Below are positions 27,301 through 60,500 of a DNA stretch of 64,000 nucleotides, piece by piece. Each line of letters starts with the position of its first letter. Positions within the stretch are counted from its first letter, which is position 1. The notes below the pieces were generated by a model. It had not been told where the DNA came from and searched no databases. It was given only the letters and a program-made list of their open reading frames with translations. This stretch comes from Neelides folsomi (taxonomy: Eukaryota > Arthropoda > Collembola > Neelipleona > Neelidae): assembly GCA_034687125.1 (NCBI GenBank), contig JAQGBZ010000156.1, positions 62,001 to 126,000 on the forward strand, written 5' to 3'. The position numbers and the translations under genes were made by a program.

Positions 27301-30300
27301 CTTAAAGTAAATATTGAAAGAGAAAGAAATTGTTTTCCATCAGACTTTCATGTTCGCAATCGGGAATTTTCAATAATTAATGAGTTTCCTTCAACTTTCC
27401 ATCATGCAAGACGAGAGACTTATGTGGATATTATATATATTGCCACTGTATTTCTTTTCTATTTACCTTTAGCCTTTAAATTACCCTGTGCTACCACGAG
27501 TGGAGGAGGTGAATACACAATGCATATACCAACTTTCCACTTACTGTTTGAATATTATGCGGACTAGGACTTGTAGCATTACGATATGGGAAATTGCAAT
27601 ATAGGAATATACGTTTTCTACTTATATTGTGATATTTACATTTTTCATGAAGTTCCGATTTCAATTTTAAAAATTTAAAAATCTATCACTTCACTGTCTC
27701 AACTCGATGTCAAAGTTAAATATTTTATTAGCAATTTTAAGACAAGGATGGCTACAATATTGTCATATTAAAAATGTAGAGCTATCCATATTCACCCAAA
27801 ATATTAGTTTTGTAGAATCTACAAATTACACAATTTCAAATGCATAATAGTACTTATATGGAAAGGTCAGACATGTAAGTTATAAATAAGGGATAAAGAG
27901 ATGTGTAAAGAAAAAATCCCAAGATGAAATGGAAACACAAATCCTCGAGGTACATAAATACTCCACTTATAAGCCCAAGCACGAGACGGAGAAAAAAGTA
28001 TTTATCTGTATATGAGACAGCATGGTAAATGTTGTGTTGGTTCGGGCAAGAGAACCGTCATGAGTCTCATCTACCAAATGGAAGTTGAGCGAAATTGTGG
28101 ATGCATTTAGAGAATTAAAGGAGAAGGAAGAGAATTTTTATTTATGGCCTTGAAGCTCCTTTGGTTCATTGGGGATTTAGTGGATAAATCATATGAGGGA
28201 GTGATTAGTGTGAAAAGAAGGGGAAAATCCGAGTAAAAGTGGGCAAAGTCATTTGTGCTTCATCTTCCACTAGCATTTCCTTCCGCTGGCCTTCGGCTCT
28301 CCTCTCAAAGTGGAATGTGAATGAGTAGAAAGAAAAGAAATCTCTCCTTATGAGAAAACCATGGAAGGTAATGAGGAAAGAAAAATGGCTCTTAGAGAGA
28401 ATTCCAAGAGAGATATTTGAAGAAAGTCAGGATTATTTGAAAGATTGATATGCAGGATGGAAGATAGTTCCTAATAAATGAATCTTGGATTGTTTACTCG
28501 CGTGTCACTAGATACACGGCGAGGTTGAGGGTGCTTCAGGCGTCTTCAGTGACACTTTCAATCGTGGGGTAAGTGAAAGAAATGGAGGAAACCTTAATCT
28601 GGTCATCCTCAGAGATCCCCAAATCCTCATATAGATATAATAAGACATATTCGAACTTACTATATGGTACATTTCTCCCTCTTTTCTCATTGAAAGGGCA
28701 TGTGAGGGCTTAATATGAGAATTCCGAATTCCAATGGTACTACATTAAGTACAGTAGTGCGGCGTTCCAGATAGAGTTAGGAGGTTCCTTTTAACAGAGA
28801 CTGAGAATCTCATATCCTTTTCAGCTTCGAAGTTTAGTCACCTCTCACGAGTGAAGGAAGACTTTATAAATCTTCTTTTCAACTCTGGTCCCTTCATCAG
28901 ATTACCCTTCTTCCGTGATCCTTGAGTCTAACCCACAAGTTTCAACTCGACGATGTGGATCTGAGAGTGAAAGAATATATCGTGTATTAGAAAGTATAGT
29001 CTACTACGAAAACAATCCCATTCCAACCCCACCCGCACGTTTTTAAATCAATGGTCTAGAGACATTTTATGACACTCTCAGCGGGAATCTTTTTGATTAT
29101 GGATTTTCACTATTTGAGAATGGAGCTCAAATCGGGTTTCCAACTCTCCATTTTCAATAATAGTACTATACACTAGAATGGAACAAAGCATGGACTAGAT
29201 GTTATTATTATATAACGGAAAGAATTACATACTTTAGACTGGAGAAATGGAACAAGAAAAAATTTGATTTATAAAATTCGATTGTAGGTCGTTGGGCCAA
29301 AGGAAAGTTCGTCTTCCGGGAGCAATGCGTCGGTGAGTGGAAGCAGCGTGAGCGACGGTTTCAGTACTGGAATAATGAGTGGAATGGGAGCTCCTGGGCG
29401 ACCAGCAAAACCGGCTTTACCACCAAAACCGCCGAAACCTACACCACCGCCCAGACAAGCCCCCGATGTCTTCTCTTTCAATCAAAGGTATGTGCTTTGT
29501 GTCTCCTCCATTCTTTTCAGAATCTCTCCGGTTGCCTGTGTGCAGAGGATGGAGATAAAGGATCGGATAATAATGGTTCCACGAGACCCAAAATCCGATT
29601 TCTATTCCATTCTTCCTTCATATTGAGAGCGGATCTGCTCAAGAGAGGAAGTGAGATTGGGAAAAGAGTATTGCTCCGGGACAGAACTTACCCGGAGAAG
29701 GTGGAAGAAATTGATTCTGACTCTTTTCCTAATGATTGTGTGGTGAGGAGCGAAACCGGAGCCTCATTTTTCTTTTTCTCCAATGATAGATCTTCTTCAA
29801 CGAGCGGAGGGCAGAGCGAAGGAGTGATGCATGACAGGACTGAATTACCCATCAAACCCAAACCCCTGTTTCTGAAAAAACACATGGGAGGCTCACACTC
29901 TTCCTCGGCTAATGCCCAGCTGTCAAACTCTTCAGAGAAAGAATCCAATATAAGCAGTACGACGGTGAGTATTTTGCCAATCTCTTTGCCTTTCACTACT
30001 CCAGTGTACTTTGTATCTTGGGTTTGTTTGAGGAGGTTTTTTGAGGTTTGGCCGTTTGCCTCGGGTATTTGAATTTGAGAAAAAGGGTAATAAAATTCAC
30101 ATGGAGGACCCCAGAGAAAGTTCCGGACTGAGAGCGGAACCACTCTCCGAATTGCTCTACAGAATTGAGCTCATTTGACCGTATTGTGTGTTTAGGTTCG
30201 AGTGTCGATCAATCGGCGGATCGAGATGCCACCCGCCTTCCTTTTCCCGGAAAGCGATCCTCCACCATCTGATTTGATTCCGGAACATCAGTCATCGTCA

Positions 30301-32299
30301 TCCTTCAAGCAAGGAGACGTCGTAGAGCAAGACAGCGTGGATTCCTCAGCTTATCCTAAAAACAATCACCTCCTTCCTGAAGAATACACCTTGCCCGATC
30401 TCTTCCCAAGCCCCCGCCTTGACTTCCTGGAGTCGATGAAGGCCAACGAGCAGAGCATGAAGGAACATCTCTCAAACGAAAATATAATCAATAACAATGA
30501 GTCGATGACTGGAAACAGGGTCAATTCACTCACGACAAACTTGAATCTCTTCCGGGGAAATAATGTGAATTTGGGTCCAATCTCTGGAAATTTCCCGGAC
30601 CCTAGTGAGCTCTCACATCCTTCCGACGAGAATCGAAAGGACCGAGATCATCATCACGAAATGAGAGAGAGTGAGACCAAGGGCCACGAGGAGAACCACA
30701 TCAGTGTGATGGAGATTCAAGTCGGAACTGAGGGTCTCAAGGAGAACCAAAACCAAATAGAAACCAAAATCGATTCCGCTAATCAGCTTGAATCTTTAGG
30801 TTTGCCCAATTTTCAATTACACTCTCCAGAGTGGAGATCAATACGTTTGATCTAATTTCTCATGACTCTGCCTTTTTCATTTCAGAAGCTGGGGGCGAGG
30901 TACAAAAAGGAAGCGAGAACGAAAAAGATTCCAACTTCTCTGAAAGTTCCAATTCCACCCCGACCGGAATCGTCCGTCGAATCAAAAAGGGGAATTTGAA
31001 ATCGGGGAATAAGGTGAGAGATCAATATGCTGCGGCATATTGTAAGATATTGAATTTAGGTCTTAAATTGACATATTGCCATAATACACATTATACGTAA
31101 AGTCAATTCTAATAAGATGTTGACCCTGTAGGACCACGCTTCTGTCGGTCGACGTGTGAGCTTCGATCCGTTGGCTCTTCTCCTCGACGCGTCATTGGAA
31201 GGCGAGCTGGACCTCGTCATGAAAACGGCCGGTGAGGTAGGGAACGCATCTTCAGCCAACGACGAAGGAATCACGGCTCTCCACAATGCTATTTGTGCTG
31301 GTCATGCCGACGTGGTGAGATTCCTAGTGGAGTTCGGATGTGATGTCAACGCCCAAGACAGCGACGGATGGTGAGAAAGGATTAAGAAGTAATTAAGGGT
31401 GAGCTGATGATTAACGAGGGTCTCTTTTTAGGACTCCGCTCCACTGTGCCGCGTCCTGCAACAATGTCGGAATGGTGAAATTCCTCGTTGAGCGTGGAGC
31501 TTGCATTTTTGCGACAACGTTGAGTGATCATGAGACAGCGGCTGAAAAATGCGAAGAGGATGAAGATGGTTTCGGTCCATGCTCTGAATACCTTTACAGT
31601 AAGTTTAAGACGTGATATCGATTCCCTCACCTTGGCCTCCCAATACTCCTCATCTTCTTTTATCGCCGGTCCCAAGGCGGTGTTTGAGGGCACGTCGGGC
31701 GGATTAACTACCGCTGTCGTCCTCATCATCTAATCTCCTTAATGGCTTCCCCTAGGCAATATCCCCAAGTGGAAGATCGAACGTCGGGATGATTCCTCAT
31801 TACTTTATCATTATGAATCAGAGTTTGAGGTCTGGAGGGCTGGAGTGAATTGGAAGGGGCGAGGAGTTATGGGAGCCCCAACTTTCCCCCTTTTGTTGTC
31901 CTACTCATCCTGTTTGTCTTTCAGGCATTCAAGAGAAGTTGGGGATCATGAACGGCGGGGCCGTGTACGCCGTCTTTGATTACGAGGCCCAGAATCCCGA
32001 TGAGCTCACTTTTCGCGACGGGGAGAAGCTCGTTATTCTTCGGAAAGGAGACGAGTTGGAGCGGGAGTGGTGGTGGGCCGCAGCGGGCGATAAGCAAGGA
32101 TATGCTCCAAGGAACCTCCTCGGCGTAAGTTATTCCACACAACTAACCCTAAGCCCCGCATTGTCTCGGATGTAATAAGACCGCAGCAGAGGTCTACATG
32201 CGACTCACAATTCATCCCATCCAACAGTTGTAAAATCTTATTGCATATTTTCAGCTTTATACAAGAGTCGTCCACAAGCTCAAGGACTCATCCTCCTAA
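15325..32299 (+). CDS. ASPP: ASPP: apoptosis-stimulating protein of p53 / PP1 regulatory subunit 13 family (5' partial)
   Basis: Coding exons: 15325-15574, 19725-19906, 23993-24166, 26733-27266, 29288-29487, 29790-29964, 30196-30799, 30886-31013, 31132-31370, 31432-31598, 31925-32124, 32255-32299. All phases agree, giving 965 residues in the window. Residues 1-202 form the family's alpha-helical/coiled-coil region (starting near [13 protein letters not shown]). A Gln/Asn/His-rich part follows, then a PxxP-rich stretch near 415-440. RVSF at 757-760 is a canonical PP1-docking motif, followed by ankyrin repeats (about 765-880) and an SH3 domain (about 894-952, with EWWWA). In animals ASPP proteins recruit PP1 catalytic subunits, control junctions and Hippo/RASSF signalling, and in vertebrates steer p53 to apoptotic targets. 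The SH3-terminated, RVxF-bearing form resembles ASPP1/2 and single invertebrate ASPPs rather than iASPP. The N-terminal ubiquitin-like domain is missing and should lie upstream. Confidence 0.95.
15575..29287 (+). other. Four long ASPP introns (15575-19724, 19907-23992, 24167-26732, 27267-29287)
   Basis: These introns are about 4.15, 4.1, 2.6 and 2.0 kb long, far longer than most introns in the rest of the window, which are often 50-100 bases. Each has GT-AG ends matching the exon phases given for ASPP. I saw no nested gene: frames on both strands (for example 16712-17014, 20966-21325, 22077-22474) are short, overlap antisense partners and show no family motif. Splicing enhancers or regulatory elements may be present, but I cannot identify them by reading. 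Confidence 0.6.
22107..22138. repeat. GAGT tetranucleotide microsatellite
   Basis: Eight tandem copies of GAGT, one of them changed to GGGT, lie inside the second long ASPP intron. This is an ordinary short tandem repeat that could be length-polymorphic. No function is implied. Confidence 0.9.
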
Positions 32300-34509: not shown

Positions 34510-37500
34510 TTATTGATCGATGTATTCAATGGGTTCGTCTTTGATGGCGATCGACAATTCATCCCCTCCAGGAGACCTCTGAAAATAAAAGATTTGAGCA
34601 ATAAACTTCAAAAACTTTTTTCAAATTGTGGTTCTAAAGGGCTTAGCAGAATGTTTATCTCTTTGCATCCCAATTCCCCTCAACTCATTGACATTCGTGA
34701 GGAACTCCTCGAGTGGGGTTCTGAGTAGGGGAAGGCGGGGCAGGAACTCCCCTCTCTGCTTACCGGTTCGTCTTTGATGTGAGCTGGGTTGTTCCGATCT
34801 CCAGGACCTCCGTTCTCGTCCGCAAATTCCCTTGCATAGTACGCCTCGTCTTTCACGAACATCTCGTCCTTCACCGTCCCCATCACAATATTGAGAAGGA
34901 TGGGCGGCATGCAATTTCTCTGCAATTTGGATATTTGGAAGTCAGAGGCTTTTAAAGTGATTGGTACTGCCTTGACGGCACATAAAACTCCCCGGGATGT
35001 GTAATCATTTCATATCAATATCGTAATATGTGTAATGAATAGAAAAGCAATTCCTCACCTGTTGCTGGGAGAATGACATGAGGTGGTGGGAGAGGGGATC
35101 ACGAAGTTCTGGAGCTTCATCGAGAGCCGCCTTCAACTGGGCTGGCGGGAGCGTGAGGAGAATTGGGATGCTCTTCGGGATCGTACGTTGGCAGCATTTA
35201 ATGAATCCTTCCCACACTTTCGGTTCTGTCCACACCTGGAGGAGAAGAAGGGGAAATTATCTCCTGGAACCAATCCAATTTCAATGAAGAATCCTCTTAG
35301 TCCCATTCGCCCTCCTTTATATGCTCATCGGAAGTTGGTTGAGAGTACTTTGTCCTCCGGCCCGTGAGGAACTTAATTTGTGGGCTACCAGGAATGGAAC
35401 CTCCTAGCTCTATTCTTTCCATATTACACCCACATTGAAAGGATAAGCGGCTTCCAAAACGTAATAAAACGCTCCACATCCCCAAACCCAAAGAAAAGAA
35501 AGAAAATAAGGAATTATCTATAGGACTCGTCTACTATAACTCTCCATACTACCATTATTATTCACATTTGTGGGAAAATTGTAGAGAAAGTTGGGTGAGA
35601 GTCAAAGAAAAGACGGAGGATTAAATTCAGCAAAGAAGTGGAAATCTGATTGAGGCTTCGAACAAAATGAGATGACAATGTATGAAAAAGAGTTTTGAAA
35701 AGAAGTTTAAGGAAACCTGACCTTTTTTTCAACGAGCCTCGTTAGTGTGTTCATGATGAACCCTGCGAGCTTCGAGTGAAGAGCCAATGTTTGTATTACG
35801 GTACGCATGAGGAGCGTTGGAAGCGGATTCTGCTCCATCAGCTGATTGATGACAGCGGCAAGGACTTCCGCTGTGTACACTTCCGTCTCGTTAAAGCAAA
35901 GTGAAGTTGCTGTGTAAATACAATCAATTCAATCAAAACAGAATCTTCAATGACTTCAATCGCAAAAGAATACTTTATGACCCTTGTCATGTACTTAAAA
36001 ATGTATGGAATTCTAAAACTTTTTCTTTAAATGTAAAAAGTTGAAAACTTGTGGAAAAAACATATTTGTCCCATGTGTATCATCAAAATTATTTTCTAGA
36101 AGAAAAAACAAAAAGTTAAAGTAAATTAACTTACATTTGATTACAGTTTTGAAGTCGCATTTGCTTGGTTCGATGTTATGTAAAGCAACCATGAGTTCCA
36201 CTGGAGAAATTGGACTTGCATGCTGGGTTTTTGCATCTGCATGAATTCCCAATAGCCGATTAAAGACCTGGAAAGTTAAACAAAGAGTTGAACCCGCAGT
36301 TGGCTTTAATGGTCTGTCCTTTATATATCCACCACTTACTTCTTTCACTACGTTTGGGTTCAATTTGATGAGTTTGGGGAGGGCGGAAAGTATCTCAGTC
36401 TTAGTGAGTCCATTGATGACTGGAATTAGGAAACGGACGTCGGAGATTCTCTTTGCGTACAAATTTCTTACTCGGTTCACCAAGTCGATCGTGGGGAGAG
36501 CTGTGGGGTGAACAAAGACACTTTGGATTACCAAATCCTTCCACAAACAAATTCCTCCCAAACTTTGGGTTCTTTTCCCTTACTTTTGTCCGTGAGGATG
36601 TGAATTATTCGAGTCATTAAAGTTTCGGATCCTTTAGGAAACGTGTCTAAAAGTTTCATGAGGTCGGGTGACTCCATTCCTATTTTCCTAATCGGAACTT
36701 CGATGTATCTTAGAATACTCCGCTTCACATCAGAGGAAGTCTCAACGTAAACTTTGGCCAGCCTATAATTTCATACTTTATTATATATTAAATTATCAAC
36801 ATTTAGTTTTAGTCTTAACACTAAATTCCGATCTTCTCCTCATTTCCTCCCGAGGCGAAAAGATAAGAAGAAATCCGTAAGTTATGAGCTTCATATCATT
36901 CATATGACAAGGAAATCCTTACTCGTGGATGAGAGAATTCTTGATAATGAGGAGCTGGAAATAAAGATGTAGGCACGATTTTACAAGCTCCTCGTTCCAT
37001 TCTTTCTCAATATTTGGTCTTCCGAGCTCTGGAGTAAATAGGATTTCAGGAGGTGAAGGGAGCCGTAGAGAATTAAGAAACGTCTGGACGGCTTGATCAT
37101 CAATAATTGCTTTGACGCCTTCCGACGACTCGTACAATTGTAAAATGCATGTGACTCCATGGGCTCGGATCTAATTGTAGATAAAAAGGTTATAAATTGA
37201 AGAACGAATCCGGGCCAACTCCACCTCTTCGTTGGAATGGGAGCAGAACTCGAGGAGGGCCGAGAGATAATGGAGCTTTTTTGGCATTGATCGCTTCATT
37301 ACTGATTCCTTAAGGAGGTTCATTCCTTTGCTTGCGTGTGCCGGAACACCGCATAATTCCTTGAGGAGTTCCAGACCTTTGTCGGGAATGACGCTAGATT
37401 CTGTATACAGACGCCATGCTAAACTAAAAAAAGCACAAAAATTAGATCTTTTAAAATCATATTTAAAAACTTACTTTGACTTTTCTCCCTCGATGGGTGA

Positions 37501-43356: not shown

Positions 43357-44316
43357 ATGGAAGTCCGACGCGATTGGTATCAAACGGATTCTGACATTGT
43401 TGTCAATCTTCTTACTAAAAATTTGAAGAAAGAAGACGTCAATGTCGAATTTGGCGAAAAAAAGGTTTCATACTGGAGCTAATGAAAATTGCATAATTAT
43501 TATAAAATAATTATTATCATTACAAAATCAATTTATTTTGAGAGTTCACAATTTCTACGTAATGTATTCTTTTAACAAGCTCAAAGTAAAGGCTGTTTTG
43601 TCTGATGGTTCTAATTATGAACTCGATTTGGATCTTGCAAGCGATGTCAATCAGGGAGCTTGTTCATGGAAAGTATTGTCCACGAAGGTAATTTTTATGA
43701 TAAATACATTCTCATATTTATTTAACTTTTAATCCTTTCGTATTTATAGATTGAGATTAAGCTTCGAAAGGGTTCTGGTGGAAAATGGGCAGATCTTGAA
43801 GCAGCAAAAGCAAAAGGTTTTTAACTTGTCTTCTATATAATTTATAGTGATCTAATCATTATTGTAAATTACAAAACTTGTACATTATTTCACGATAACA
43901 AAATGATCACTGATCACTAAATTTTTCTCAATAATATTTTGGGATTTTAACAGAAGAAGTCAAACCAAGTTATCCATCCGCATCAAAGAAAGACTGGGAT
44001 AAAGTTGAGAAGGAAATTGCAGGTCAAGTTGAGGAAGAAGGAGATGTCAACTCACTTTTCTCAAAGATCTACAGCTCTGGGGACGACAACATGAAAAAGG
44101 CCATGATCAAATCATTGGTAAAAAAAAGAAGCACTCAAACATTTATCATTTTAATTAAATATCGCTTCCATCAGTTTTTAATTATTCAAAATTATTTATG
44201 TATTGTAGCAAGAGTCTGGAGGAACTGTCCTCAGCACCAATTGGGAAGAAGTTGGCAAAAAGAAAGTTGAAGTGAGTCCTCCCGATGGAATGGAATTCAA
44301 GAAATGGGACGCTTAA
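43357..44316 (+). CDS. SUGT1: SGT1 / SUGT1 homologue, HSP90 co-chaperone (CS and SGS domains, no TPR)
   Basis: Five coding exons, 43357-43464, 43580-43687, 43750-43816, 43954-44117 and 44209-44316, give 184 residues with matching phases. Residues 1 to about 90 are the CS domain: [19 protein letters not shown], and the VLSTKIEIKLRK strand that in SGT1 proteins contacts the HSP90 N-domain. About 95-184 form the SGS domain ([47 protein letters not shown], ending [11 protein letters not shown]). Vertebrate, plant and yeast SGT1 have an N-terminal TPR domain; this one starts at the CS domain, as insect SGT1 does. The family acts with HSP90 and SKP1-type complexes, including at kinetochores and in LRR-receptor stability. 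ATG 43357 follows a 3' splice site by one base. Confidence 0.96.
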
Positions 44317-45120: not shown

Positions 45121-48100
45121 ATGGACTCGTTAGAATGTCGAAGATATGAAGACTTTGAGGTTTGGAACGCCGAAACTAACGATTTTAATTATTGTTTCTT
45201 CAACATTTGTCTTCTCCTTCCGACATTGTCATTCTTGGCCATTTCTTCGGCATATTATATTGGAAAACGAAGATTTATATACACTTGTCACACGACATGG
45301 AACACTTGCCAATCAGTCAAGATTTACTCAAGATCTGGATTTGCTGCAATTCTTTGTCTACTTCCAGTAATCGATTTAATGGTTCAATTAGATGTTTTCG
45401 ATAATCGGCTCACCTACGTCCAAATCGCCACTGGATCCTTAAAAAGTTTCACATGGTTCCTTCACATTATTTACATTCTTCGACTCAAAAGAGGAATTTC
45501 CTACAATACTCGAGGCCCAAAACCAATAATTCTCTGTTGGATTCTTACAGCCATAGTCTCTTTATTGCATTTGCGCTCAGAATATTTATACGGTGAAACA
45601 GTGACAGTCAGCAACGAAGATTTATCCCAATTACCCAAAGAAGCAAATGACATGACAAACGAAACTTTAAATTCATCTAGAACATTTAATGAGTCAACAT
45701 GGGCATTGTGGTTGAGTATAGTTGAAGCCACATGTCAAGGCCTTTATTTCTTAAGTTTAATTCCCGAAGCTTTAGAAGAAGTTCAATATCGCTATATCTT
45801 CAATGGAGGAGGAAACGCTCACGAGAGTCATTCATTTCTCGACCACGAGACAAATTCTTTTGTTGGATTCCAAGAAGAAGATGAAGATCCCATGTATCTT
45901 GGAATTGCAAAAGAAAATTCAGGATGGATTTCAAAACTGTTCTTCGCCTGGGTGAATCCACTTCTCCGCAAAGGAGCCTGCGGATTTCTTCGATATTCTG
46001 ATGACCTTTTTGACCTCCCGGGAAAACTTTCAGTTTCTCATGTTGCCACATCATTTCAGAAAGCCAATGAAGGAAAGACGATCATTCAAGCTCTTCATTC
46101 ATCATTTGGATTCGAATTCTATTGTATTGGAGTTATTAAGTTTATTGGTGACGCTGCGAGTTTTTCTGGCCCTATTTTCCTCAATCTCCTTGTCACATAC
46201 ATTGAAGAAGGAGATGAATGGAAAGATATTGAAATTAAAGGATATTATTATGTTGTGGGCCTATTCTGTGTCTCTCTATTAAGTAATTGACACTTTAATA
46301 TTAAGTATGTAGCTTATATCGATAAAATTACATAAATATCATTTATTTATTAGTATATATTTGGAAGACTGATTTTTTCTATATTTTATATTCTTTCCAG
46401 GTTCATTATGTAATGTTCACTTTAACATGAGAATGGCTGAAGTAACTTTAAAGATGAAAGCTGCTCTAAATACTGGAATTTACCAAAAGACTGTTCATTT
46501 GAAGAAAACGACGCTTGAAGCTTTTAGTGCTGGGGAAATCATGAATTTCATGAGTACTGACATTGATCGAATAACCAATTTTTGTCCGAGTTTCCACGCG
46601 TTTTGGAGCTTACCTTTACAAATCGGAGTTTCTCTCTACATGCTTTTTTCACTTATTGGACTTTCGTCTCTTGCTGGACTTGGGTTCTCTATATTGCTCA
46701 TTCCCATCAACAAAGTCATTGCGAATAAAATTGGTAAATTAAACTTTTTATATATAAAATCAAATCTTTTAATAACTCAATTTTAAAATTGATTTAATAT
46801 AAAATTCAATAATGCTTCTAGGTTCAATAAGTCAGACGATGATGCAATTTAAAGATTCAAGGGTCGATTTGATGTCTGAAATTTTATACGGAATACGAAT
46901 ACTTAAGTTTCACTCCTGGGAAGATTTCTTTATAAAGAAAATTAATAGTAACTTCCATATTTTTAAAATCGTGCTATTTTAAATTGTTTCAATAAATATT
47001 CATTCGCTTTTAATGATTTTTGACAGAAATACGTAAAAAGGAACTATCTAGTTTGAGAAGTCGTAAATATTTGGATGCAATTTGTGTTTTCTTTTGGGCC
47101 ACCACTCAAACATTTGTATCTCTTTTTACATTTGGAACTTATGTTCTACTTGGAAATCAACTAACGGCCTCAAAGGTAAAAGGACGTTTACATAAAATTA
47201 TATTTTGAAAAAATACGTATTTTAAAAGAGTTGATTCATAAAAACTTTGCTTTTGTTTTTAGGTTTTCACTTGCATAGCCTTATTCAATATGCTAATTGC
47301 ACCTTTGAATGCACTTCCTTGGGTTATAAATGGAGTTGTTGAAGCATTTGTCTCTGTTAAAAGGCTCTCACATCTTTTTGAGGTAATTAGGAATGGTCTT
47401 TTCGATTCAATTAAAAAAATGATATAATTTATTGATATTAAATATTTTATTTATAATAGAAAGAAGAAACTGATCCAGAAATGTCTTACGAATTACTTAC
47501 GCCTTCGCATAAAATAACACATGACATAATCATTGAGAATTCTTCTTTTTCATGGAAAGCGAACTCCAATGAAGAAACTAATTTCACCATTGAACTTTCC
47601 GATTTAGAATTCAAAAAGGTAATGGAACTCATGTTCGTATTCATGGTTTGATTTTTTGTTGGCTTGTGTCAAACAGGGTAAAAGTAAATATTTATAAATT
47701 CACTTTAAAGGGTGATTTCATTGGGATTGTTGGTGAAGTCGGAAGTGGTAAAACGAGTTTACTTCACGCGCTTATGGGAGAATTAGAAAAGAGATTCGGT
47801 CACGTTTCTGTTTCTAATTCAATTCTTAATCAAGGTCATTATCTTATTTGTTTTTATAAATACGTACTTATCATAATAATAATTTATGTTATTAAATTGT
47901 TATTGTTCTTATTCTCGAAGGTTGTGGCGTTGTACTTCAAGATCCTTGGGTTCAAAGGGGAACAATCCGAACAAATATATTATTTGGAATGCCTTATAAT
48001 CCTACAAAATACAAGTTTGTTTAATTTGAAAAAATATTATGAAATATAGTAAAAGGTAAATTATTGTACAAACTGTTTAATGATTTTATTTAGGACTGTG

Positions 48101-51100
48101 ATCGAGGGTTGTTGTTTGGACGCAGATTTGGCTGAATTTGAAAAGGGTGATGAAACTATTGTTGGAGATAGTGGGGCCACATTGAGTGGTGGTCAAAGAA
48201 TTCGCCTAGCACTTGCTCGTGCTGTTTATCAGGTTGGTCAGTTTGTCCGATTAAAGAGGATTAAGTAATTAAAAATCTTTTTAACCATTAAGATTTTTAT
48301 GTGGTTTCAGGACAAGAACTTGTATTTGCTCGACGATATATTTTCTGCAGTTGACTATAATGTTGGAAAGGACCTTTACAAAAAATGTATTCTTGGCCTT
48401 TTAGAAGGAAAAACGAGGGTTGTTGTGACACACCATGTGAGTTTTCTCAGAAATGCTAATCTCATTATCGTGATGGATAAAGGAAAAATTATTAAACGAG
48501 GTGGGTAACATACATAGAATATTGTAAAATTTTCTAATAACGATAATATAAATAATGTTCAAATTATTAAATAAAAGGTATTAACTTTATTTTATGTTAA
48601 AGGTAAACCAAGTGAAATTCTTCCCATATTTTTTGAAGATGAAGAAATTTCTTCACTCGATGATACACAAATGGAAGTAAACCCCTCCAAAGCATCTCTC
48701 TATCAATCAACTGAATACCATACAGAGAAAGATAAAGGGGGAAACGAAGAGAATCGAGAAATTGGAGCCATTCGACTTCACGTTTATACCTCATACTTTT
48801 CCTCAATCGGAAAATTCCTTTGTCTCAGCGTCCTGATTTCCCTCTTGGCTATGCAAGGAACAAAAAATGCATCGGATGTTTGGCTCGCTTATTGGATCTC
48901 ACAAATTGACAATAATGGGAGTATTCCTGTCCCGGCTTTTACAACATCCACAATTCCTCCTCCCACTTTTGAATCATATAGAAAGACTGAAGAAGGACTT
49001 GATGTACTCAATGAAGAAAACGCAAATAACTTATATTTCTCGTATTACAAAAGTTTATGGCCAACAAAATTGATTGGCGAGAGCTTTCAGCTCATGCAGA
49101 ATTTAGATCCTAAAGTTGAATATTTCTTTTCTGTCTTCATATTTATTGGACTTCTCAATGCATTTTTTACTCTCGGAAGAGCTTTTCTATTTGCTTATGG
49201 CGGAATCAAAGGAGCTGCCGAAACACATACAAAACTTCTTTCATCTGTCTTAAAGGTTTTACTATTTATCTTTAATTTAACCTTACACTTATTTACATTA
49301 AATATTTAATTGAATAATTTTTTTATACCCTGGGTTTCTCAATATAAGTAAATTTTAATAGGCAAAAGTGAGTTTTTTCGACTTGACTCCTATTGGAAGA
49401 ATTATTAATCGATTCGCTTCAGATATTTTCATCGTTGACGATTCACTGCCGTTTATTCTTAATATTCTTCTAGCCCAGTTCTTTTTACTTTTAGGTAACT
49501 ATTCCGCTCTATTAAATTGTCTATTGTATATTTCTATCTGTATAATTATTTTTATTAACAATAAATAAGTGTGTATTTGTTAATTGATTTTTTTAAATTT
49601 TAGGTACGGTTGTGATTACGTGTTATTCTCTTCCTTGGATTCTTATCATATACATTCCTTTACTCCTTGTTGCAAATAACGTTCAAGAGTTTTACAGAAA
49701 GACTGCGCGTCAATTAAGGAGGCTTTCCTCAATTGCACTTTCACCCCTCTTCGCTCACTTTTCAGAAACCATGAAAGGGCTTGTTATAATTCGATCTATG
49801 CGAGCAATAAGAAGGTAATTTATAGATTTAATCCTTCTTATATTTATTAACGTTGCAGTTGATAGGATAATTAGTTCCTCGTTTATACAGATTTGAAGAT
49901 GAAAATGAAGCTTATTTGGAAGGGAGTCTTAAAGCTGTTTATTCAACTCAAGCTGTAGCTCAATGGCTAAATCTTCGTTTACAATTTATCGGAGTATTTG
50001 TCATAACAGGAGTTGGTCTTATCGGTGTCATTCAACATCATTTTCGTATTGCTGACCCTGGTACGTTTAATTCTTTATACTTAAAACTAATACATACCTA
50101 CTTATTTACGAATTCTCATCTGTAAACAATTAACAAATTTTTTGTTTACAGAATTTGTTGGACTTGGAATTTCTTACTCCTTAATTTTAACGAGCTCTTT
50201 GAGCGGTTTCATCAACTTCTTAACAGAAACCGAAAAAGAGATGGTCGGGGTCGAACGAGTCATTGAATATACAGAAAAAATAGAAGAGGAAAGTAATGCT
50301 AAAACTTTAGTTAAGATTCCTTACGCGTGGCCGACATTAGGAATCGTCACTTTTCAAAACGTTTCTTTAAAATACAGGTGATAATTAAAATGAGCTATAA
50401 TATCCCTTTCTTTTATTCTTAATAAAACAATCATTTTCTTAATTTTATATCTTCTACTGATATAATAGAGATGAGCTTGGTTATGCTCTCCGCCAAGTTT
50501 CATTTGAAACCCGACCATTTGAGAAGATAGGAATTGTTGGAAGGACTGGATCGGGGAAATCTAGTTTACTTCAAGCACTATTCAGAATGGTCGACTCTTT
50601 CGAAGGAAACATCTTAATTGACTCTGTTAACACAAGGAACGTTAACATAAAAGATTTGAGGTATGTATTCGGATTGGGTGTTTAACATTAAATTTTCTTA
50701 CACTGCATGGCATGCTAATAAAATTAAAGGTTATAGGCAAATTGTGTAAAAGAACAATAAATGAATAATGACTGTTATTGTAATTGAATGTAGGAAGAAG
50801 CTCTGTATCATTCCTCAGCAACCTTTGATATTTACCGGAAGTTTAAGAGAGAACTTGGATCCAAAGGGAAATCATAGTGAAGAAGAAATTATAAGAGCAA
50901 TTGAGAAATGTCAACTCGGAGGGTTCATGACAAGAGTTGGAGGAATTGGAGGGAGCGTGGGAGAAGGAGGGAATTTACTTTCGGCTGGACAAAAGCAATT
51001 ACTTTGTCTCGCTAGAGCCATTCTGATTAACGCAAAGGTTTGTTTAAAAAGCTACCTCATAGTATTAATTAATTTTATTTAGAAATATTATTTATGAGTA

Positions 51101-53419: not shown

Positions 53420-54022
53420 ATGGCCAAAAGAAAAAGTTCTCTACCTTTGTCCATCCCACGCCGAACTTCATTCTCGTCTTTCAACGTAGGGCAAGGAATG
53501 AATTGTAAGTTTAATCCCGGGAAAATATTTGTTATAAAGATCCGGAAAATATACGAGGTCGGGATATATGATAATGTTTTGATTTTCCGATTTTTTAGCT
53601 TTTGACTCATCTCCACCAATAATGGGAGCATCATCATCCGCAATGAACATTTCTTACTCTCCTTACTATGCGAATTCACCTTCAACATTCATGACCGGTC
53701 CTTCCCGAGAGATTGGAACTCAAACACCGACTGAAAAATTGACTTTCGACTTTCCAGATTCACGACGCGGCTCACGAGACTCAAACTCAACGGATGACGA
53801 AACGGGTAAATTTTTTTGTAAAGTAACTTTAAATAACGTTTGAAGCGTAGTTAAAGTTTATTTAAAGATACAATAAAAGTAAAATACAAATTTATCTAAC
53901 TTATTTTTGTTACTTCAACAGGGGATGTGGGACGAAGTTTGAGGATGATCGGTGATGAATTGGATCGTCGTGGTTCGTCGCGAAGAAATTCTCTTATCCT
54001 CTTCCTTCGAAAATCCCTTTAA
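53420..54022 (+). CDS. Candidate BH3-only protein with BIM/BMF-like dynein-light-chain motif
   Basis: Three coding exons, 53420-53504, 53599-53805 and 53922-54022, have agreeing phases and give 130 residues. ATG 53420 is chosen because an in-frame TAA sits at 53399 and no acceptor lies between. Most of the protein looks disordered and is rich in Ser, Pro and Thr, with SP/TP sites at 33-34, 49-50, 55-56 and 71-72. Residues 69-72 are TQTP, like the DYNLL-binding motif of BIM and BMF. Residues 100-111 fit the BH3 pattern: V100, L104, I107, invariant G108-D109, L111; the run VGRSLRMIGDELDRR resembles the BAK and BAX BH3 helices closely. No BH1/BH2 motifs or further exons follow. The C-terminus (SLILFLRKSL) is only weakly hydrophobic. 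In BH3-only proteins this helix binds the groove of BCL-2 family guardians or activates BAX/BAK. The function here is inferred from motifs alone. Confidence 0.7.
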
Positions 54023-54512: not shown

Positions 54513-57500
54513 TTATATATCGCTATACAATGTAGAATCATCGGCTAGTAAAAAATTTTTATCAATGCAAATTACGTGTTCTTCTCTCCATGCCATATTT
54601 TTCATAAAACCATGATCAAACGCTCCAATTGGCTTTAAAACAAGGTTAAGAATTCCTCCACCTTCAACGATTTTTTTCAAGTGGCCTAAATCTTCAGGTA
54701 GATTGAACTCAACAGGATTGAACTCAGACTCATCCATCCAAATCTAATTTAAATAATCAAATTTATCAATAGCAATCATAATTAAAACATTAAAATCTGA
54801 AAAAATTACTCGTTTAATGAGATAGAATGGAGGGAGCAAAACAGGAGCAGGAGTTTTCCAATTTTTTCCATCATTAAATTCGATATTGAAATACAATTTT
54901 GCATTGTGAGGCATAGGTTTCGGCAGGATTAAACGAGGCTGAGTGGCCAAGACATAAAGATGCCGAAGTGCTTGTAAATGATACCTTGTAAAAAGCATGA
55001 TAATTATATTTTAGCTTTTAATAAAATGTTAATAGATTTCATTATCTTATCGTTATAATTCTTATAATAAATAATGTAAAAAATTAAGGAATAATACCTA
55101 TTGTCATTGGAATTGATTGGCCATTTGGGAAACACAGAAGCTAGAAGAACAGCAATACTCTTATCATCGTTAGATAAAGAATATCTCCCACCTCCAAGGA
55201 ACAAAATGCCAGTGGCCATTGACACACACATTTCGAATCCATAAGTATTACTTGAAGAAGTAATTTGAGTTGTTGAAATTTTTGATTGAAGATAACGGCA
55301 GAGTCTAAGGGCCGGGATATTTCCTGTTCCAGCCATTACAAGGCAGAGTGAGAGCAAAAGATTACAAACGGAAGAATCCAAAAAGTTCTTAGGAAAATAT
55401 TCAGCGACTGTTGTTTCCGATGTAAATAAATGAAGCATAGCATTGATATAATGCCATAGGGTCTTTTCAACTTGTGAATCCGAAGTGCCAGCGAAACGTA
55501 TTCCAAGGCCAAGACAATATCCACACACTATACTTGCCCATGCTTGACTAAAATTGAAAAAATTAAATTGGGTTAAATATTACCTTAAATCAATAATAAT
55601 AATTATTATGTACATGCATATTATTTGTATTTAATTTATAATCTTTAGTACTTGATGCTTTCATGATCAATTCTCAAATTGGGATCTGGTTTTCGAAGGG
55701 CTTTTTCTAACAAAGAAGTTGGCATTAAATTCTCTTCAAGCCAAACGTAATTGGGCTCGGAAACTTCTTCCATGACGAGGATAGAAGCAAGGGCACGAAG
55801 CATGAGAAGATCCGGTCTCACGCCATCAAGAAGGTGAAGTGTGCTTGGAGGTGACAACCACTTCAACACTGCTTCATTACCACCTTAATTGAATTATAAT
55901 TTCATGTAAGATTAACAGAAATATTGCGATTAAAGATAGAGTTTTGTTTTTTATAAAAAAATATTTTACTTCTGAGGTAAATCAAAGCAACTGCTATTAT
56001 GGCAGAAGGAGTTGTTACATCTACGTTTACATTATCCCCTTCTTCAATGTGACAGCATCGATATTCTTCCCAGAGTGAAGGAAGAGTTTGACCAAATTGA
56101 TTAAAGGGATCTTCTTCTTCTCCATTATTGTAATAGGTCGGTTTTGGTCCTCCAACTACAAATCTTCGTAATATTCCATCAAACCCTTCATCTTCTAAAC
56201 CAATACTTAGCCGTCCTTTGCCCAAATTGACAAACCCAAGGCCAAACCCTTTAAAATCACAAAACAAAATATAAACACTAACATATCATAAAAACTTTGT
56301 AAAAAGACATTTTTTAAATAATAATTTACCTGCACAAAGGGAGTGAGCTTCACGATCAGCAGCCATTCCACTAGCTTCAATGACATTGATATTTGATGTC
56401 GAATTGTTTGCAGTACCGCCACCGAACACGCTGAGTGGACTGTATTTTTTCGATATTTCTCCAATGAGTATTTTCCCTATATGGCTGTTATGAGTTCCCA
56501 TGAATAAAAGGCCAAGAGCACATGGGGCCACCAGTGTAGCCAAACGAGGAATTTCTAACTCTGTGGTACATGTTGGAAGCATAGCTCCTATGTGCAAACT
56601 CAAGAGCTTCCAAGTTGAAATATCACCAGTTCCTAAAAAATTAAATGAGCTTTAAAAGATTTGATTTATATAAAAAATTGCCCTAAGTTCATCTCCCATA
56701 ATAAATGAATAAACCTTTTATTGTTAATATTTACTGTATATGGAGCTTTACCTGCCAAATTAGCTGAAAGACCCAATAGCATTGCCATTGTAGTAAATGA
56801 GTTTTCTTTTGATAAATGGTCATGGCGAAGAGTTGGAGGCATTGAAGATAAAATACCATTTAAACCAAATCCAAGGACCATTCCTGCTTGTTCGGGACCA
56901 TCGGTAGTTTTAGATTTATTGTAAGCAAACCTAAATTGTATAGAATTTCCATTTTTATAAGAAAGTTAATACAATAAAAAGTGAATTTTTAACTTACCAT
57001 GCATCAGCCGGTGCATCGGTAAAATGAACTGAAAGAGCCGAAGCTACTGCATTATGAAAATTAGGCCAAGAAGTGAAACTGACTGGTAGTTCAGAATCAT
57101 TCAGTTCAACTGAAGTTCCTTTAATCACACATTTACCAGAAAGGCATAATCTGAAAATGATAAATTCAGTTTTAAGTTGATAATGTTATTAATTATATGG
57201 GAAAAGTCTGATACTAATAATACTTAAAACATTTTTTAAAGTTAAGTCCACCTCGGAATGGTTATAATGCTTGTAAGGTTCGCATAATTCTTTTCTTCAG
57301 TTCTAAGGGTGAAAGCGGCTCGTCCAACAGAAGCAGCAAAACTTATTTGAATAAGTTGTAAAAGATGCTTCTCTTGTTCTTCTACGTATTCATGGTCAGA
57401 CATCTCCGATCTTTGCTCCACATCAACGTTAATTGGAGAAGAAGAATCAAGAACTCTGCAAACTTCCTCAAGTCTCCGATCCTCAGAAAATACTTGCTAT

Positions 57501-60500
57501 AAAATAATAATGAAATAATATATAATTATTTAATTTTGATTTATAGCTATAAAGAAAAACAATCACAAGTAACAAATACTAGAATACAACTTATATTTAT
57601 TTATGATATGGGTTTTATTTCGCAAAATAGAACACACCATGTTTAAGACAGGATTGACCCATGAAGCTTCTTCAGAATACAAATCATTTTTCTTATATGG
57701 AGAAAAAACTTCAAATATTTTATCCTTCATGATGCTATTTGCAGCATTTTCTCCACTTAAGTAATCGGTCCTTCCTACAGCGCTTATCACACATTCAGGC
57801 CAATCAAAACGAACATTGCTCCTGTTTCGATGAAAGACATCAGTTATGAGAATTTCAAGCATCGGAATGAATTTTTCTTCTTTTTCATTCATTCGAGCCA
57901 ACTTTTCTAACGATTTTATGTTGTCTGGATCATTGAGAAGAATTTGCATGACTTCTGGTAAAGTTTGAAATTCCATCAATTCGGTCGCATTTTCACATAA
58001 TATCATGTTTTTGAATCTGGAAAATATTGATGGAGCTTTCTCATATATCTAAAACAAATAATAGTATGTTACATTATATATTTTCAATTTGTACAATTCA
58101 CACAATTGTTATAATATCGATTAAATGAAATGAAATAAAACAATTTTGTTTACCAATTTATCCGAAATGCAATTTTTAAGTTCATTTTGCAGAATTTCCA
58201 ATCTCTCAATATCAAACACTTTGGAGTAGTATATTTTATTAGCCTATTTAATGAAAACAGTATTAAAATCACAAGTCGTATTCGCTTATTTGCAAAACTT
58301 TGAATTGGCATAAAATGTAAGAGCTGAATCAAACCTCTCTGAGGATGTCAATTTCTTTGATGATTTTTGTTCCAAGGGATTGAATTGAATCAAAAGGTTC
58401 TATCATCAAAACTGTTTTGAGTGATTGAACAAAATCTTCCCATTCTGTTGTTGAGTCTGGAGTTCCAGCTTTGGTATAATTTATTATAATGGAAGTAAGC
58501 TGCTTGCTCGTAACATTTCCTTTTAGTGAATCAATGCAAGTCGCAACTAGATTATTTTCTCTATAATTTCGTAACTCTAGTTTAACTAATTTCTTTGAAT
58601 TGTCCTTCATTTCACAAATTATTGTATCTCCGTATAAAATGTTACTCACGGATACAACTTTATTCGTCCCGAGATCATAAGAAACAAACTGAGCTGAAAG
58701 AATATTAAAATTATCGTCGAGCCAAGCTATCTTAAGTTGGCCAGTAGTTTCTAAAATGACCACAAACGGATATTTTTCTGAGTCTGGCCCAGTTGGGCAA
58801 CAGAAATCTTCAACGTTTTTAATTGCATAATGATTAAGTATCGTTCCAGATCCAAGATCTACGCCGTGTAAATACAAATTGTTTTTAATGAGAGACCAGA
58901 GTCCGATTTTGTTTCGTTTTACTCCTTCGAATTTAACTTCATACATTGATAAAATGAATTTTCTTGGAGGCTCCCAATATCCCTTTGCCAGGTTTACAAT
59001 AAGTATCGTATTCAATGCGAGTTCTACATCATCGTAGACGCAGACATGGGGAGGATAAAATCCATGTGCAAGACCAGGATTTACAGAATCGCTGAAGTCG
59101 AAAGTTGGCCAATAGTATGTTTGATTTCCTTCTCTAAATAAACAAATAAAATAAATAATAAAAAGAATTTAGGTATGTAAATAGTATTTATAAACTCTAA
59201 TTAGCATTTAAATTTCACTAACTTGTTGACTTTCATTGCGGATTTTTGAGCAGAATATCTATTGAATGGAAGAAACATATTCGAAGTGTCTGCATTTAAA
59301 AGTTCTTGATTCGAATACAACGATGCGTTTAATGTTGTACTGTCTGTTATATCTTTCTTTGCGAGTTTAACTAATTTCCTCAATATTATTTTATTGTCGA
59401 CAAAGTTCCAAAAGACACAGAGATCGCTCTCGCACCAAAGCAAAGTTTCTCCTTCACTTTCATATTCTCGATAATCTAAATAGATTTATATATTATGTAA
59501 TTTTATTTAATCAAATGAAATTGATATTTTATACATGTAAATACATACAAAGTAAATATTTGTAATATAAAATATTATTTTACCAGGAAAAGATTTTAGC
59601 CAAATTCGACTAATTTGCTTTACAGGGTTTGTCAAAACATAAATTCCCTTTGTGTAATGTTTTCCATCAATTTTTAATTTACTTCTGATTGGAATAACAA
59701 TCATTCCAAAACAGCATGGTATAATCTCTTTTATTTGAAAATCCGGCATATACGCAACATGATTTTCGCTGCTATCTTCTGAGTATAAAGTAATTCCACC
59801 TTTCTCAGCCAAGCAGATATAAGCTTCTAAATAAAAACAAAATAATAATATATAATTAATAATAATATCCAATCCATATTATACATATGTGACACTGTTG
59901 AATGTTTAAATCTTATAAATATCGTACAATCCATTAGATTGACATCACAAAAAGAAAAAATTATCAAAATACCTTTTGTCGAAGAATCAGAATCTTTATT
60001 GAAATATGCTTTGATTGCACTCCTGATTCCAATTCCGGTCCCATATGATGTTTGTGGTCTGTAAAGTGCTTTGAGCTTCGATTGCCCTCCGAGAGGTCCA
60101 ACCGAAAGAAGGCAAACACCTTTTGAAACAAAAAGTTCTTCTAATTCACCACGCAATCCATTCAAAATTGGTAAATGCTGAATCGTTTCTGTGAAATCGG
60201 AATCTTGTGGAGGATCCAGTCCAGTACGAACTGGATAATTTTGCCCGTACTTTACTACTTTGGATTCTCCCAAAGTTAGGGCGATAGCAAGATTTGGCCA
60301 TTCATTGCATAACTCTTGAGGATACCACGGAGTATTTTTTTGAACTTGTAAGCCAAATGGTGTTACAACCTAATTTTTTATAATCAAACAAACATAGGAT
60401 AAGTACCATAAAAATATCATTTTTCGCATGTATTCAGCGGTTAAATTTTAAGGTTTTATATAATTAATTTACTTACTGACGCTTTTATTGATAAAATTTC

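Follow-up and report, generated by a model that had tools for sequence, protein, structure and literature searches.

A short gene at 53420-54022 of the window, which is the whole 64,000-nucleotide stretch of DNA analysed here, raises the question of whether its organism uses a BH3-only trigger of apoptosis and, if so, whether that trigger shares its ancestry with vertebrate BIM. The features of the predicted protein suggest that it is probably a BH3-only protein of the BIM/BMF type, tethered to the dynein light chain LC8, and possibly an orthologue of BIM. The preliminary description had read the gene as BH3-only, and this reading is well supported at the sequence level by a best match to the BH3 of BAK, the lack of recognisable BH1 and BH2 motifs, an LC8-type motif upstream and an adjoining APC1 gene. 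Its further description of a genuine death ligand is a functional prediction. It had also called BH3-only proteins hard to find in arthropods, but the group is not empty, as the Drosophila protein sayonara was published in 2023. Nevertheless, such triggers have rarely been reported in arthropods, and the candidate differs from sayonara in build.

Gene model and coding evidence

Rebuilding the candidate gene on the forward strand results in three exons separated by two GT-AG introns, both in phase 1, and in a translation of 130 residues, MAKRKSS...LRKSL (Table 1). The three-exon, phase-consistent structure proposed at the outset is therefore reproduced. The splice sites look normal, with the donors ATT/GTAAGTT and CGG/GTAAATT (the slash marks the exon end) and pyrimidine-rich acceptors.

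Table 1 Features of the candidate gene and of its neighbour, in window positions
Feature	Position	Strand	Residues	Remarks
Exon 1	53420..53504	+	1-28 and base 1 of codon 29	Ser/Arg-rich N-terminus with KRKSS and RRTS; donor GTAAGT
RRTS basophilic kinase-type site	53459..53470	+	14-17	
Exon 2	53599..53805	+	remainder of codon 29 to residue 97 and base 1 of codon 98	linker carrying the LC8-type motif; acceptor TTTTTTAG, donor GTAAAT
LC8/DYNLL docking octamer REIGTQTP (predicted)	53706..53729	+	65-72	profile of measured binders
RRGS basophilic kinase-type site	53763..53774	+	84-87	
Exon 3	53922..54022	+	end of codon 98 to residue 130 and stop	BH3 helix, hydrophobic tail
BH3 segment DVGRSLRMIGDELDRR	53924..53971	+	99-114	core V100-L111 at 53927-53962; profile score, helix model
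RRGS and RRNS basophilic kinase-type sites	53966..53992	+	113-116, 118-121	at and just past the BH3 end
Hydrophobic C-terminal segment NSLILFLRKSL, possible membrane-binding tail	53987..54019	+	120-130	predicted helix
APC1 (anaphase-promoting complex subunit 1) gene, 3′ part	54513..56651	-		tail-to-tail with the candidate

The codon-usage model with which coding potential was assessed used 15 exons judged likely within the window for training (75 segments) and stop-free non-coding segments as the null. Ten frames of the window, nine of them among the 15 training exons, were checked with Pfam, and a family was found in five of the ten. In this model exon 2 has weak coding support, its score being reached by 7% of the non-coding segments, exon 3 is indistinguishable from non-coding sequence (33% of the null equal its score), and the codon usage of exon 1 speaks against coding, since 59% of the non-coding segments equal it and just 1% of the training segments are as low. 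As the exons are short and the composition of the protein is odd, the codon-usage test constitutes weak evidence. Exon 1 is the least secure portion of the gene, the expression of which is predicted from the sequence; both functional motifs described below are located in exons 2 and 3 and would thus survive even if exon 1 is wrong.

The residues S, P, G, N, D, E, K, R, Q and T make up 72% of the protein, which contains 26 serines and has a mean TOP-IDP value of 0.119, with disorder judged purely from composition. The gene, located on contig C156, is present as a single copy in the genome searched (75.1 Mb, 840 contigs), where no paralogues were found and the sole other match reached 14.5 bits at an E-value of 1.84. 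A tblastn search found no relatives in the genome_contigs (154 pattern stretches) or viral_contigs (28) collections, which are prokaryotic and viral and ill-suited to arthropod genes.

The BH3 segment

The core V100-x3-L104-x2-I107-G108-D109-E110-L111, from which the gene was initially recognised, is found in the rebuilt translation at exactly these positions. The bare BH3 pattern of four hydrophobic residues with Leu, Gly and Asp is not significant as such, with 0.39 occurrences expected in approximately 55,000 six-frame positions, and is common on a larger scale, with 56 occurrences expected per 8 million residues, the size assumed for the proteome. The full 16-mer was scored on a profile of 16 columns made from 11 human BH3s and reaches 26.65 bits, or 24.7 bits when BAK is omitted. 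When each human BH3 is left out in turn, the scores range from 8.9 (BOK) to 26.2 (PUMA), with BIM at 23.7 and BAK at 24.1; the candidate lies above all 11 of these and, without BAK in the profile, is exceeded by PUMA alone. It ranks first among the 55,373 positions scanned in six frames across the window and loci L001-L005, followed by the organism's own BAX/BCL-2-like gene on contig C12 (18.2 bits) and by the best unrelated position at 9.5 bits. In random residues (ten sets of 8 million in either of two compositions), the maximum was 21.4 bits and the candidate's score was never reached, while the exact expectation of that score per 8 million residues is 0.0046 with the 11 BH3s, 0.020 without BAK and 0.038 with the BH3-only set alone. 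Unlike the bare pattern, the full 16-mer scores like a real BH3 and is expected 0.005-0.04 times per proteome by chance.

Database searches point to the same segment. A phmmer search of the whole protein against 177,635 PDB sequences returned 22 matches at E-values up to 10, comprising 20 BAK entries and two uteroglobin fusions, with a best E-value of 0.15. With residues 93-130 as the query, BAK accounts for 31 of 31 matches and the best E-value is 0.011; the same residues reversed, as a control, gave zero matches in the PDB. The BH3 has nine of 15 residues identical to BAK, six of 15 to BIM and five of 15 to BMF. A Pfam search of the protein at E-values up to 10 returned no families and hence no chain-wide homology to BIM. 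The claim that similarity searches would miss this gene thus stands in part, namely for Pfam and, at E = 0.15, for the whole-protein comparison with the PDB.

The helical hydrophobic moment of the protein is greatest at the BH3. An AlphaFold2 model of the 32-residue exon-3 peptide alone, obtained in single-sequence mode, places the BH3 helix at peptide residues 2-15, with a mean pLDDT of 72.1 for the peptide and a pLDDT of 80 over the first ten residues of the helix. The sequence features of a BH3-only protein are present, namely a motif with Leu, Gly, Asp and the hydrophobic positions, an amphipathic helix as judged by moment and model, and BCL-2 targets in the host, and neither BH1 and BH2 nor a BCL-2 fold was detected with Pfam in the protein or with the Pfam Bcl-2 model over contig C156.

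An LC8-type docking motif upstream of the BH3

The octamer REIGTQTP in exon 2 was evaluated with a profile made from 11 of the 12 rows marked "Y" in Table 1 of PMC6607443 (a near-duplicate MUC4 row was dropped) and BMF, on which it scores 20.7 bits. The 11 measured binders, each left out in turn, score 7.9-20.9 bits, with BIM the highest at 20.9, and BMF scores 8.1; all 31 rows marked "N" in the same table lie at 14.7 bits or less and the four weak rows at 11.4 or less. From the per-position values, such a score would arise by chance among the protein's 123 octamers with a probability of approximately 1.4e-6 to 4.3e-6, and TQT alone occurs in 3,050 of 200,000 shuffled versions of residues 1-98. 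REIGTQTP is also the best of 101,331 six-frame nuclear positions, which were taken from the window and from loci chosen for BCL-2, LC8 and telomere matches and are no random sample; the second-ranking position is RTISTQTE in the BCL-2-type gene on contig C125 (17.1 bits) and the third scores 12.8 bits.

The profile has its limits, as several binders rank under several non-binders, and the phage-selected VSRGTQTE gets just 10.3 bits, although its binding is ten times as tight as that of the strongest natural motif in the available text of PMC3078936. Related sequences occur on both sides of the published binding table: a MUC2 peptide containing GTQTPT is listed as a non-binder, and ICE1, an LC8 binder, has R-x-I-G-T-Q in common with the candidate motif (PMC6607443). 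According to the same source LC8 has more than 100 partners with many functions, and among its clients BIM and BMF are BH3-only proteins (PMC3078936, PMC12017986). By sequence, the candidate has the arrangement of these two proteins, with a TQT-type LC8 motif N-terminal to the BH3.

C-terminal tail and kinase-type sites

Like BIM and BMF, the candidate has a hydrophobic C-terminus, LILFLRKSL. The AlphaFold2 model of the exon-3 peptide contains a tail helix at peptide residues 21-31, although at low confidence (pLDDT 59-66). In addition, the protein has four RRx[S/T] sites, and at least four such sites appear in only 6 of 20,000 shuffles, a rarity that suggests control by phosphorylation.

The APC1 neighbour

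As modelled, the stop codons of the candidate gene and of the APC1 gene are 490 bp apart. The assignment of the neighbour relies on PDB searches in which APC1 accounts for 8 of 8 matches both for 56289-56651 (best E-value 1.4e-10) and for 54747-55010 (best E-value 1e-8), the latter aligning to residues 1599-1666 of chains of 1,944 residues. The stretch 54516-54743 is presumably also part of APC1, to judge by its position, and most other ANAPC1 exon assignments are likewise presumptive. A presumed APC1 exon at 58332-59168 had zero PDB matches, and no APC1-like minus-strand frame was recognised by eye across the candidate gene. At 54513-54743 on the minus strand, APC1 seems to be about 200 residues shorter at its end than the human protein, or else its last exons went unrecognised, and its true 3′ end may differ from the modelled one.

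We take the published gene lists of human 2q13 to be in map order and the human BCL2L11/ANAPC1 pair to be convergent. On this basis the human neighbour of BIM is very probably ANAPC1. The genes lost in 2q13 are tabulated in PMC13397852 as BUB1, ACOXL, BCL2L11, ANAPC1, MERTK, TMEM87B, FBLN7, ZC3H8 and ZC3H6; the available part of PMC4521466 names the identical nine protein-coding genes in the identical order, with ACOX1 written for ACOXL, and that of PMC5857311 gives these nine in a different order. None of the three further 2q13 types searched for, ACOX, BUB1 and TMEM87, has a match on contig C156, their matches being on C157 and C18, C96, and C250, respectively; since all of these are other contigs, just one neighbour is common to the locus and human 2q13.

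BCL-2 proteins, caspases and LC8 in the genome

The Pfam Bcl-2 model identifies three contigs above its cut-off, C12, C125 and C384, and none of the matches is on C156. In PDB searches with exon pieces joined or read, the BCL-2-fold gene on C12 has BCL-2 and then BAX as its best matches, and that on C384 has BCL2L10 and then BCL-xL. The gene on C125 matches A1/BFL-1 at an E-value of only 0.01, followed by BCL-2/BCL-xL chimaeras and BCL-xL, and a query with the N-terminus included matched nothing in the PDB at an E-value of 0.01 or less. The products of C125 and C384 would be of the pro-survival type and that of C12 is BAX/BCL-2-like, the division into death-preventing and death-promoting proteins being an inference. 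The genome further contains ten matches to the caspase family (Peptidase C14), and matches to the dynein light chain (LC8) family on three contigs.

On the minus strand of the C125 locus (L018), at reverse-complement positions 3036-3093, a predicted N-terminal exon, MSSRTISTQTEESDPVILK, carries the LC8-type motif RTISTQTE and, with an intron in phase 1 as read from the sequence, can be joined to the next exon. LC8 motifs are, to our knowledge, not a familiar feature of BCL-2-fold proteins.

Relation to known BH3 proteins

In BIM, the LC8 motif is followed by the BH3 and then by a hydrophobic C-terminus. BMF likewise has its LC8 motif upstream of the BH3 and of a short hydrophobic tail, although its BH3 has Ala replacing Gly. 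BAK is a folded pore former. For the nematode protein EGL-1 we know of no LC8 motif. The candidate resembles BIM (BCL2L11) in that the LC8 motif, represented in BIM by the listed binder APMSCDKSTQTPSP (PMC6607443, Table 1), is N-terminal to the BH3, and in its position adjoining APC1, as BCL2L11 is listed beside ANAPC1 (PMC13397852, PMC4521466); it differs in the missing chain-wide similarity, in the modest BH3 identity and in having a single neighbour in common. With BMF, whose LC8 motif is EDKATQTL (PMC3078936), the difference is again in the BH3, where the candidate has Gly, and in the small number of identities. The BH3 itself is closest to that of BAK, with which it shares VGRxLxxIGDxxxRR and which is the sole PDB family matched by residues 93-130, but unlike BAK the candidate is without BH1 and BH2.

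Among ecdysozoan proteins, sayonara (CG14044) likewise comes from an arthropod, has the BH3 as its only BH motif and acts through BCL-2 homologues (PMC10107002). It is, however, a protein of 378 residues with two coiled coils (PTHR21974), in contrast to the 130 residues and absence of any Pfam family in the candidate, and its BH3, LAYNLGVIGDARK, is located in an interhelix region and inferred in Muscomorpha flies only; the available text of PMC10107002 reads sayonara as a dipteran innovation and makes no mention of an LC8 motif. EGL-1 of Caenorhabditis elegans is also an ecdysozoan BH3-only death trigger, but acts on CED-9, which binds CED-4 (PMC8998228). According to the available part of that survey, BH3-only proteins occur in some ecdysozoans but not in all, with EGL-1 in the worm and none in flies, and BLAST searches with BIM, BAD and BMF gave probable BH3-only proteins in deuterostomes and only potential ones in lophotrochozoans. 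In a literature search that covered invertebrate, tick, Tetranychus, Daphnia, crustacean and mite topics, with most subscription journals outside its scope, no LC8-docked arthropod BH3-only gene was found, and the available text of a paper on tick Bcl-2 and Bax (PMC8336254) names no BH3-only protein of ticks.

Proposed mode of action

In healthy cells, REIGTQTP would keep the protein bound to LC8 dimers. Stress, perhaps signalled through phosphorylation of the four RRx[S/T] sites, could then bring about its release or re-pairing; mammalian BIM is phosphorylated and freed from LC8 upon starvation (PMC12017986). Once released, the amphipathic BH3 helix might occupy the groove of the pro-survival-type BCL-2 proteins encoded on C125 and C384, that of the BAX/BCL-2-like protein encoded on C12, or both, while the hydrophobic tail may assist at the mitochondrial membrane. 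Pore formation by a BAX/BAK-like protein and activation of caspases would follow. These final steps are the least certain, because cytochrome c is stated to be without a role in the initiation of apoptosis in flies and worms (PMC7022251).

Alternative explanations

The proposed mechanism would apply equally to a real LC8-docked BH3-only protein that arose independently of BIM, with its linear motifs acquired by convergence, as has been argued for sayonara, and its APC1 neighbour a coincidence. Since ancestry alone distinguishes this explanation from the one preferred here, the probabilities of the two overlap, and an independent origin is a serious contender that we place a little short of an even chance. 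New BH3 motifs are expected to evolve readily from scratch (PMC10107002), the Pfam search revealed no homology along the chain, and the three further 2q13-type genes are not nearby. The survey that places BH3-only proteins late also could not connect those of different protostomes by orthogonal searches (PMC8998228). However, several coincidences would be needed for the two motifs to appear in the same order and beside the same neighbour, and the chance of having that neighbour in common is roughly 0.0005-0.0008 for BIM or BMF, or 0.002-0.003 when eight human BH3-only genes are considered, by an estimate that is simple and post hoc and uses assumed gene numbers.

Other explanations dispense with the BH3-only function altogether. 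An expressed LC8-binding scaffold or kinase substrate with some other function, in which the likeness to a BH3 is incidental, would be in keeping with the abundance of minimal BH3 patterns in a proteome and the variety of functions among LC8 partners (PMC6607443), yet it appears improbable, as the full BH3 segment is beyond whole-proteome chance, residues 93-130 match BAK alone in the PDB, and the other high LC8-motif score belongs to a BCL-2 gene, although the DNA scanned was largely chosen for such genes. That the gene model is wrong, with exon 3 unspliced to exons 1 and 2 or with no gene in this stretch at all, is suggested by the codon usage, which is against exon 1 and uninformative on exon 3, and by the gene being short and single-copy; the consensus splice sites, the consistent phase-1 joins, the presence of two independent functional motifs within one frame and the C-terminal peptide, which matches only BAK even by itself, make such an error quite improbable. 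The nearest BH3 being that of BAK, exon 3 could in principle encode the BH3 of a multidomain BAK/BAX-like protein, the remaining exons having been overlooked, but its stop codon follows 16 residues after the BH3 segment and, 490 bp on, the opposite strand carries the end of a frame assigned to APC1, which renders this explanation hardly credible. A missed multidomain gene was rejected, as the Pfam Bcl-2 model has no match on C156.

Ancestry and implications

The adjacency to APC1, common with human BCL2L11, suggests orthology with BIM but is not proof of it. According to the available part of PMC8998228, BH3-only proteins are apparently missing in lamprey and hagfish and are taken to postdate the BCL-2 fold; such a late origin counts against a BIM that already existed when the lineages of flies and humans separated. 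Because the neighbour is common while homology along the chain and further common neighbours were not found, and because that survey dates BH3-only proteins late, we describe the protein as BIM-like and put orthology with BIM at somewhat below even.

A bolder idea, in which LC8 pairs the killer with its inhibitor, is raised by the LC8-type motif that the C125 protein is predicted to carry at its N-terminus. The protein would then be a protostome orthologue of BIM that is still beside APC1, an LC8-tethered trigger would have existed in the common ancestor of flies and humans and been lost or overlooked in most ecdysozoans, and in the present lineage one LC8 dimer could hold both the killer and the C125 inhibitor, one on each of its two arms. 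PMC12017986 describes the pairing of BIM with BMF as the sole case reported of one LC8 dimer with two different clients. In view of the late dating of BH3-only proteins (PMC8998228) and the roughness of the LC8 profile, we consider this extended scenario unlikely.

If the identification is correct, the presence of such a BIM-like, LC8-docked gene adjacent to APC1 in an arthropod with several BCL-2 genes and caspases would suggest an early origin for the three-part death switch of the vertebrate style, with later simplification in flies and worms. A practical route to further examples would be to scan the neighbours of APC1 for genes in which a BH3 follows a TQT motif.

Other features of the window and genome

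Several further genes were recognised in the window. Upstream of the candidate, an ABC transporter gene extends over 46373-51079 on the plus strand, with PF00664 at 46373-46783 and PF00005 at 47594-48046 and 50765-51079. An SH3 domain (E-value 5.9e-12) at 31849-32172 on the plus strand follows proline-rich frames at 29288-30852 on the same strand, approximately 21 kb upstream of the BH3 gene and in its orientation; together they look to us like an apoptosis regulator of the ASPP type. An exon at 43935-44267 (plus strand, E-value 2.3e-10) encodes an SGS domain, presumably as in SGT1-type proteins, and a C-terminal exon of Symplekin is located at 36016-36579 on the minus strand (E-value 7.2e-17).

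Contig C742 (loci L014 and L015) is mitochondrial, with 15,157 bases and an apparently ancestral arthropod gene order. Its genes are arranged as ND2-COX1-COX2-ATP6-COX3-ND3, with ND5, ND4, ND4L and ND1 on the opposite strand, which supports an arthropod; COX1 was identified by Pfam, and the others were named presumptively from their translations. The gap between COX1 and COX2 is about 37 bases, too little space for a leucine tRNA, which under the trnL2 rule would speak against crustaceans and insects and in favour of a chelicerate or myriapod, and a mite would be in keeping with the small genome. An ARAGORN run with the bacterial code gave one tRNA only on this contig, which we presume may indicate truncated tRNAs, as in mites. 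TTAGG telomere repeats, with 19 overlapping matches against none for the reversed control, likewise support an arthropod.
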